Below are positions 14,292 through 16,404 of a stretch of 24,276 bases of DNA, in pieces (within the stretch, counting starts at the first letter, position 1; each line of letters begins with the position of its first letter). The notes under the pieces were generated by a model. The model did no database searches. It was not told the DNA's origin and worked only from the letters and a program-made list of their open reading frames with translations. This DNA is from a virus: positions 1 to 24,276 of the IMG/VR virus record IMGVR_UViG_3300036768_000870; one strand, given 5' to 3'. The translations under genes were made by a program, and so were the position numbers.

Positions 14292-15725
14292 TCAGAAGCC
14301 CGGCGTCAGCGCGTCGGACATCACCGAGAACGACGCGCCGTGGCGCACGCCGATGTCGCAGGTCTGGAAGGCGCGCAGTAAGACGTCACCGGTGGTGAAG
14401 CCGGTGCTGTCGTACGGGTTGAGCGCGATCTCGGTGACGCCCCACATGGCGATGAACAGCTCCTGCCAGTTGCCGTAGATCAGCTCGGAGCAGATGCCGT
14501 TGCTGGTGCCCTTGGTGAGCGTGCTGCGCAGCTGCTGCGACTCGGCGTAGGGCGAGCCCTTGACGCGGTCGGGGCTGCCCGCCACCAGGCCGCCCTGCGG
14601 GTCCCACAGGTACTGCCCGGTGCTGGCCTTCAGCGTCGACAGGTAGCCTATGGCCTTGCTGTTCATCGCGTAGGCGGCAGCGGCCTGCGGCGCGTTGGCG
14701 AACTTGGTGGCGTACTTCAGCGAGATCAGGTGGTCGAAGGTCAGGTTGGCACCGTTGGTGCCGCCGACCACCGAGATGACGCCGGCCTGGTTGACGATGC
14801 CGGTGGGCTGGTTGCTGGCGCCGCTGCCCGACAGCGCGGCCAGGTCCAGGCCCAGGGCGATGACCGCCATCAGGTCGGCACGGGCCAGCATCTCGATGGC
14901 CGGCGTGGCCTGCAGCAGCATCAGGCGCGACATCTTGCTGAGCGCGCCCACGGTCTTGGGCCGCAGGCTGACCTTGTCGAAGGTGGCTTCGGCCTCAGTC
15001 GGTGCGCCCGATTCCGCCACCCAGTACACGCCGGTCTGCGAGATCTGGCGCGGAATGTCGACGTTGCCCACCAGGCCGGTGAGGTAGCGCGCGCCCAGGA
15101 TGGCGGTGACCATCTGGTTGCGCAGCACCTCGACGAAGCTGTCGTACAGCAGCTGCGTCTGTACCAGGTTGCCACCCTGCGCGGCGGAGCCCACCAGGTA
15201 GGGCGCGCGCTTTTGCACCTTGCCCTGCGTGGACAGCATCTCCCACGCGCGCAGGTGCTGCTCGTCGGGTGCGAAGGGCAGGTCGTTGGGCAGGAAGAAG
15301 CTGCTGCCGCCCACGTCGCGGCCGAGCTGCTTGGCCAGCTCGTTGGACACCTCGCGCTCGAAGCCGGCGGCCTTCCAGTCCTGGCTGATGAGCGCGCGCA
15401 CGGCGCGCATGTAGCTGAAGGACCGGCGCTCCTTGTCGGTCAGGTCGACGCTGGCGCCGCCCACCGGCGTGGTGCGCGCCGCGCTCTTGTCCAGCGCTTC
15501 GAGGAACTGCGCGCGGGCCTGTTCAATGGTGGCGCCGCCTTCGATCAGCAGGTCGGCCAGGGTCTGGTTCTTCCAGCGCTCGCCCAGCGCGCGGATGCCG
15601 TTCTGGCGCTCGCGCTCCTGGCGGCGCAGGTCGTCCCAGTTGGGTGCGGCCGGCGGCGTGGCCGGGGCAGCCGCGGCTGCAGCGCCGCCACGCTGTTCGA
15701 GGGTGGTGTCAGTTGCTTGGTTCAT
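14292..15725 (-). CDS. possible separate scaffold-capsid product from an internal start
   Basis: Within the fusion gene, ATG 15725 (Met212, MNQATDTTLEQRGG) is preceded by AAGGAAA with 5-7 nt spacing, better than the ribosome site of the full-length start. It falls exactly between the protease domain and the scaffold-like region, after the linker STEGK. Starting here gives 477 aa, the usual size for an HK97-type capsid precursor. This would let the phage make many capsid subunits and few protease fusions from one gene. The site is seen; its use is inferred. Confidence 0.45.
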   Translation of the reverse strand: MNQATDTTLEQRGGAAAAAAPATPPAAPNWDDLRRQERERQNGIRALGERWKNQTLADLLIEGGATIEQARAQFLEALDKSAARTTPVGGASVDLTDKERRSFSYMRAVRALISQDWKAAGFEREVSNELAKQLGRDVGGSSFFLPNDLPFAPDEQHLRAWEMLSTQGKVQKRAPYLVGSAAQGGNLVQTQLLYDSFVEVLRNQMVTAILGARYLTGLVGNVDIPRQISQTGVYWVAESGAPTEAEATFDKVSLRPKTVGALSKMSRLMLLQATPAIEMLARADLMAVIALGLDLAALSGSGASNQPTGIVNQAGVISVVGGTNGANLTFDHLISLKYATKFANAPQAAAAYAMNSKAIGYLSTLKASTGQYLWDPQGGLVAGSPDRVKGSPYAESQQLRSTLTKGTSNGICSELIYGNWQELFIAMWGVTEIALNPYDSTGFTTGDVLLRAFQTCDIGVRHGASFSVMSDALTPGF

Positions 15726-16358
15726 GGTCTTTCCTTCGGTCGATGGTTCGGCGGCTGCCGAGGGCTGCGTGCGTGCCCGTGTTACCACGTGCACGCGCGT
15801 CTGCGTGGCCTGGTCGGCGCTGCGGCCGACGCCCACGGTGGGGTCGGCCGGGATGCTGAGCAGGGAGATCTCGAACGCCTCCCACCGCTGGGCGGTGTAG
15901 ACGTCGTCGGGGCTGAAGCGGTCGGGGTCGTCGGTCTCGCAGACGTAGTCCGACGCGCGGTACATGAAGCTGACGTTGCGGATGATCCGGTCCTGCACCT
16001 GGTTCATGGCCCAGGTGCCGCGCTCGTCCTTGCCGAAGCGCACCAGGGCGTGGCCGCGCTTGTCGTCGCCGATCCATGCGCGCTCGATCACGCCCAGCAC
16101 GTCGTCGGGGTTGTGGCCCCACAGCAGGCTGCCGCCGTCGTTGAGGCGGGCCAGGTCGGCGGCGCCCGGTGCGTGCGACAGCACTTCCTTGCCGAACCAG
16201 CGGTCGACCGGGTATTCGCTGCTGAAGGTCAGCTCGACGGTGCGGGCGTCGGTGTCGACGTTGGGCGCAAAGTCGGCGCGAAAGGACAGCACCCGCTTCT
16301 GCGGGCCCAGTACGTCCCCGTCCTGCAGGCGGCGGTGTTCGATGGCGCTGTGTTGCAT
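14292..16358 (-). CDS. HK97-type prohead protease fused to major capsid protein
   Basis: The 688-aa product has an N-terminal S78 prohead protease (about 1-180) with His82 in WGHNPDDVLG, Ser130 in IIRNVSFMYR and Glu163 in EAFEISLLSIPADP; the H-48-S-33-E spacing matches HK97 protease. A short linker leads to Met212. Residues about 212-310 are a charged helical scaffold-like region (DDLRRQERERQNGIRALGER), and the rest is an HK97-fold capsid protein (SQTGVYWVAESGAPTEAEAT, RPKTVGALSKMSRLML, GVTEIALNPYDSTGFTTGDV). The protease should trim the delta region during head maturation. Fusion of the two is known in some phages but less common than separate genes. ATG 16358 begins MQHSAIEHRRL. An internal start may yield capsid alone. 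Confidence 0.92.
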   Translation of the reverse strand: MQHSAIEHRRLQDGDVLGPQKRVLSFRADFAPNVDTDARTVELTFSSEYPVDRWFGKEVLSHAPGAADLARLNDGGSLLWGHNPDDVLGVIERAWIGDDKRGHALVRFGKDERGTWAMNQVQDRIIRNVSFMYRASDYVCETDDPDRFSPDDVYTAQRWEAFEISLLSIPADPTVGVGRSADQATQTRVHVVTRARTQPSAAAEPSTEGKTMNQATDTTLEQRGGAAAAAAPATPPAAPNWDDLRRQERERQNGIRALGERWKNQTLADLLIEGGATIEQARAQFLEALDKSAARTTPVGGASVDLTDKERRSFSYMRAVRALISQDWKAAGFEREVSNELAKQLGRDVGGSSFFLPNDLPFAPDEQHLRAWEMLSTQGKVQKRAPYLVGSAAQGGNLVQTQLLYDSFVEVLRNQMVTAILGARYLTGLVGNVDIPRQISQTGVYWVAESGAPTEAEATFDKVSLRPKTVGALSKMSRLMLLQATPAIEMLARADLMAVIALGLDLAALSGSGASNQPTGIVNQAGVISVVGGTNGANLTFDHLISLKYATKFANAPQAAAAYAMNSKAIGYLSTLKASTGQYLWDPQGGLVAGSPDRVKGSPYAESQQLRSTLTKGTSNGICSELIYGNWQELFIAMWGVTEIALNPYDSTGFTTGDVLLRAFQTCDIGVRHGASFSVMSDALTPGF

Positions 16359-16376: not shown

Positions 16377-16404
16377 AGGCCGCCGGTGTTGCCACGGGCG
16401 GCCT
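16377..16404 (-). terminator. terminator-like hairpin between portal and protease-capsid genes
   Basis: A perfect 8-bp stem (AGGCCGCC/GGCGGCCT) with a 12-nt loop, followed on the coding strand by TCTTCTTGG. The tail is mixed U/C, so it would be a weak or regulated terminator, or an mRNA end/processing point that separates portal from capsid message. It lies in a 68-nt gap, among the largest in the head module. Confidence 0.4.

Follow-up and report, generated by a model that had tools for sequence, protein, structure and literature searches.

The window analyzed here is the whole 24,276-nucleotide stretch of viral DNA in IMG/VR record IMGVR_UViG_3300036768_000870. On its minus strand, an uninterrupted open reading frame that begins with ATG runs from 16358 to 14292 and encodes a 688-residue protein. 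The gene order is normal for head genes, with a GpA-type terminase and a lambda-type portal followed by the fusion gene and then a Phage_attach head-tail protein. The features of the locus are listed below.

16377..16404, minus strand: terminator-like hairpin and its T-rich tail, lying after the portal stop (16427) and ahead of the fusion gene
14292..16358, minus strand: fused gene for an S78 protease, a linker, a scaffold-like (delta) region and an HK97-fold major capsid protein, 688 aa
16356..16358, minus strand: ATG of the full-length product, without a recognizable Shine-Dalgarno (SD) sequence
15819..16310, minus strand: S78 protease domain, residues ~17-180, with H82, S130 and E163 (from Pfam, the structural model and the triad)
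15726..15821, minus strand: linker of residues 180-211, hypervariable and for the most part disordered, running up to the internal start (from conservation and pLDDT)
15732..15736, minus strand: internal SD core AAGGA (in AAGGAAA), conserved as a nucleotide motif
15723..15725, minus strand: internal start codon ATG, M212; an ATG is found in the linker of 95/96 and 40/40 clusters
14292..15725, minus strand: putative second product, a capsid precursor of 477 aa, residues 212-688
15177..15725, minus strand: scaffold-like delta region, residues 212-394, helical at 241-375 and predicted to be lost during maturation (from the model and the 8gta_A alignment)
14295..15176, minus strand: predicted mature capsid, residues 395-688, HK97 fold (from PF05065 and from 8gta_A in sequence and structure)

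A Protease and a Capsid Protein in One Reading Frame

The N-terminal part of the protein matches Peptidase_S78 (PF04586) over residues 64-178 with 28.9 bits against a gathering cut-off of 21, and H82, S130, and E163, the catalytic positions of that family, show no variation across alignments with 15 and with 44 relatives. The triad of this putative protease is in place. The C-terminal part matches Phage_capsid (PF05065) over residues 395-680 with 137 bits. An AlphaFold2 model, computed from 44 sequences, is confident for the protease (residues 17-171), disordered at 199-236, where pLDDT falls below 50, helical at 241-375, disordered again at 379-405, and then follows a capsid fold to residue 688. 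Column conservation in the linker is only ∼0.2-0.3 in the alignment of relatives. The best Foldseek match is the R4C capsid (8gta_A), and HK97 structures are also among the top matches. Because the mature R4C chain in 8gta_A begins at the residue aligned with G395, the mature capsid here most likely comprises residues 395-688, with a delta-like region ahead of it. A preliminary description of this DNA had claimed an intact H82-S130-E163 triad and an in-frame fusion of protease, scaffold, and capsid; both claims are borne out, the latter by the two Pfam domains and the helical region that lies between them in the single reading frame.

The protein also matches PHROG 617 ("major head protein") over its full length, with 459.8 bits; residues 33-682 align to positions 20-623 of a 626-position profile. 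It scores 172.8 bits against NCBIfam NF045541 (scaf_prot_MCP2), below the curated cut-off of 525 and over residues 34-306 only, and 25.3 bits against a cut-off of 475 for NF045540 (scaf_prot_MCP1), whose protease is ClpP-like, where the one here is S78-type. PHROG 617 and NF045541 ("prohead protease/major capsid protein fusion") share the domain order found here, and neither description speaks of two starts.

A Probable Internal Start at the Domain Border

In the model, ATG 15725 (codon 212) sits inside the disordered linker between the folded domains. The minus strand leading up to it reads ccGAAGGAAAGACC|ATG, and in a longer reading CCGAAGGAAAGACC|ATG. The preliminary description had placed this ATG, with AAGGAAA before it, at the domain border, and the AAGGA core does lie at 15736-15732, on the linker seam. 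We compared starts with an initiation score that sums SD pairing, spacing, start codon, and local folding, a simplified, home-made, and rough measure. In the window, the internal site scores 1.1 kcal/mol vs 17.2 kcal/mol for the upstream start (lower is better). Among relatives, the internal site outranks every other non-start ATG in 86 of 93 clusters, and it beats the best upstream start in 63 of 93, a comparison in which the position of the upstream start was a guess for most loci. The upstream start varies more than the internal one, from no SD at 16358 in the window to a very strong SD in some close relatives (L002, AGGAGGTGA).

Conservation was assessed with a fixed rule, which replaced a first duplex-energy pass that often chose noisy GTG hits: the first in-frame ATG 8-75 codons past the protease end was taken, and an SD was scored where at least 4 nt matched the anti-SD complement exactly, with an aligned spacing of 4-10. 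The sample comprised 325 fused ORFs, taken from viral contigs and from named phages and grouped into 96 clusters at 60% identity. The linker ATG is present in 95 of the 96 clusters. An SD of at least 4 nt precedes it in 75/95 (79%), against 40.1±3.6 under a synonymous null in which the peptide was kept and codons were redrawn from each gene's own usage, the sequences being not fully independent even at this level of clustering. At other in-frame ATGs of the same genes, an SD is found at 11% of 1135 sites. With the rule unchanged, a held-out set of 40 new clusters, drawn from prophages in bacterial genomes, gives an ATG in 40/40 and an SD in 32/40 (null 16.9±2.3; control ATGs 12%). A scan of the whole linker by frame finds a site in 82/96 clusters in frame, whereas the two remaining frames give 22/96 and 1/96, and ATG plus SD occurs in 79/96 linkers vs 21% of capsid-domain windows of equal length. 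The effect holds at both GC extremes (42 of 54 genes above 60% GC and 11 of 14 genes below 50%). Chance occurrence of the SD is ruled out by the synonymous null, the in-gene ATGs, the other frames, the capsid windows, and the held-out set taken together. The preliminary description had counted a lack of conservation of the internal site among the results that would speak against its reading, and the site is retained.

Close relatives (53-69% identity) keep the ATG and an AGGA, GGAG, or GGA in a linker that is otherwise diverged and hard to recognize. Among isolated phages, the site is present in VP882, phiHAP-1, R4C, RcCronus, ECO1230-10, Alexa, Persinger, and CRP-811. One metagenomic viral contig, L097 (37459 bases), carries a fusion gene whose protein product is 100% identical to its counterpart in Vibrio phage VP882. 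A DNA-level search for the linker in phages matched only PPpW-3, as expected from its hypervariability. A clear SD is missing in a few members (S-LBS1 (L083), L020, L265, L332, L458, and L489) and is weak in FoX2 (L088); in S-LBS1, FoX2, L458, and L489, it is possible that the dual-start arrangement has been lost or that initiation is independent of an SD.

The SD occupies each of the three codon registers (52/16/7) and overlaps ∼60 different tripeptides. Since its register differs and hardly any two of the tripeptides are alike, selection acts on the RNA and not on the peptide, and the same observations rule out a conserved cleavage or binding motif as the cause. Under the same SD rule, annotated neighbor genes have an SD in 24/48 cases and annotated fusion starts in 8/12, which makes the internal site at least as start-like as the ordinary starts of these phages.

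An SD-like sequence where two domains meet, within a disordered linker, could also serve as a ribosome pause that lets the protease domain fold first. We regard this as very improbable: a pause has no need of an ATG at start-codon spacing, yet an in-frame ATG is present in 135 of 136 clusters over both sets, and the positions just before it are poor in G, unlike those before other in-frame ATGs. We put as little weight on the site being an unused fossil of two formerly separate genes that lost the intervening stop codon. It is common for protease and capsid to have separate genes, each with its own start, as in HK97 (PMC8508860). A fossil would decay, however, and the site is still kept in relatives at 30-40% protein identity; genes split at the protease-capsid seam were sought among the loci compared, and none was found.

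How One Gene May Supply Two Subunits

Internal initiation very probably yields a free 477-aa capsid precursor alongside a minority of full-length, protease-bearing subunits. A single mRNA would carry two in-frame translation starts. Rare initiation at ATG 16358 would give the 688-aa protease-delta-capsid subunit, and frequent initiation at ATG 15725, through its own SD, would give the 477-aa delta-capsid precursor. The delta and capsid parts common to both would let a few copies of the long form enter the procapsid shell by co-assembly, bringing the protease to the interior, where, once activated, it would cut off the delta regions (near Q394/G395) as well as itself. The preliminary description had likewise read the gene as able to make both a fused protease subunit and plain capsid, and retention of a nucleotide signal in a hypervariable linker argues for that reading. 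Its further suggestion of a large excess of normal-length capsid fares differently in its two parts: the scores fit an excess, but the 477-aa product would keep an N-terminal region of ∼183 residues. By analogy with HK97 gp5, that product would be a capsid precursor and not a capsid of mature length.

A simpler account holds that only the 688-aa fusion is made, that the protease on each subunit cuts itself and the delta region off at maturation, and that the SD and ATG are incidental. The reading frame is indeed open throughout in all 325 fused ORFs (an apparent internal stop in L048 is the terminal stop), and the alignment with 8gta_A calls for a cut near G395 in any model, so that mature virions alone cannot separate this account from one with two products. 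It would, by inference, place one protease domain per capsid subunit inside the shell, and it leaves the retention of SD and ATG far beyond the synonymous and in-gene controls unexplained. We consider it improbable, though less so than a pause or a fossil. An internal promoter in place of internal translation was rejected on a simple scan for sigma-70-like promoters, the one type it covers, which found none in the region.

In the annotation of many phages and prophages, the capsid comes from a single long protease-capsid fusion, which raises the question of how a shell could accommodate one protease per subunit. The conserved hidden start, if used, resolves that question. The annotated capsid protein of these phages would then probably be the minor product, and protease dosage in the procapsid could be adjusted through one ribosome-binding site.

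A Hairpin Upstream of the Fusion Gene

The terminator-like hairpin ahead of the fusion gene is concentrated among close relatives: it occurs in 11 of 14 unique upstream regions at loci of at least 55% identity (shuffle rate 4%), in 17 of 39 at 44-55% identity (2%), and in 15 of 258 below 44% (1%). Loci with the hairpin also include L005, L007, L011, L012, L015, L016, L018, and L019, and further L021, L025, L026, L030, L034, L037, and L040. Its stems change sequence between relatives while pairing is kept, and the T tract often adjoins the fusion gene's own SD (TTTTTTGGAG). There is no space for a promoter between the hairpin and the gene, which is odd for a gene expected to need the most mRNA. 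Possible roles for the hairpin are antitermination, attenuation, or protection of the 5' end.

The hairpin bears on another reading, that the internal site is the sole capsid start of importance, with the fusion arising from occasional weak initiation upstream and the hairpin lowering or timing the long form. In the window, no SD precedes the first ATG, which lies downstream of the hairpin, and the scores differ by ∼16 kcal/mol, in keeping with this reading. A terminating hairpin upstream of both starts would nevertheless cut mRNA for both products, and the upstream start has a good SD in some relatives (L002, L010, and L012). We think this reading unlikely, if somewhat less so than exclusive production of the fusion, and it departs from the two-product mechanism mainly in degree.

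Relation to Known Head Genes

The closest parallel is lambda C, with its in-frame nested scaffold gene Nu3 (Shaw & Murialdo 1980, cited in PMC8508860). In both, an N-terminal protease shares one frame with a downstream in-frame start, which gives a protease-free product in lambda and would give one here, and the gene in the window has the conserved in-frame ATG, served by a ribosome-binding site of its own, that marks such an arrangement. The nested product of lambda is the scaffold alone, with capsid E encoded by a separate gene, whereas the nested product here would include the scaffold-like region and the capsid domain and not a separate scaffold. The best reading, by analogy, is that the arrangement here would be lambda C/Nu3 extended to take in the capsid. 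The HK97 gp4 protease and gp5 capsid likewise combine an S78-type protease, a delta-like region on the capsid, and the HK97 fold, but in two separate genes instead of one fused gene.

Gifsy-2 and the Pseudomonas phages F10/MD8 resemble the window in having a single gene that joins protease, scaffold-like region, and capsid, but their protease is ClpP-like. The tripartite capsid gene of Gifsy-2 was reportedly described by Effantin et al. (2010, Virology 402:355). A single gene for protease, scaffold, and capsid is described for MD8-like phages, and the MD8 capsid part is most like the Mu capsid, according to PMC8508860; a protease-capsid fusion is also described in the RcC cluster (PMC8601537). 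Protease-capsid fusion is thus already known from MD8-like phages, the RcC cluster, NCBIfam NF045540/NF045541, and Gifsy-2. The apparently new part is the internal start at the seam: no report of one in such fusions was found in the literature searched, which took in few subscription papers, and the text seen of PMC8508860 makes no mention of one in treating the single-gene fusion.

Fusions with a ClpP-Type Protease

Fusions of the F10-like type, such as gp5 of Pseudomonas phage F10, in which a ClpP-like protease is joined to a capsid of a different kind, have an in-frame ATG preceded by AGGA or a longer match 24 codons past the protease. Their sequences suggest that the same internal-start solution may have arisen outside the S78 family. 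In these genes, the peptide at the internal site is also conserved, and the site is weaker evidence than that in the S78 set. We see the chances as evenly balanced that initiation at the seam would be a general rule for fused protease-capsid genes, reached independently in the S78 and ClpP types, such that fusion would be tolerated with the protease kept as a minority passenger and the hairpin would form a second layer of control in the window's subfamily. The ATG and its SD are found in 11 of the 11 nonredundant F10-like members listed, namely, L096 (4387-6468), L390, L393, L398-L401, L403, L404, L406, and L407.
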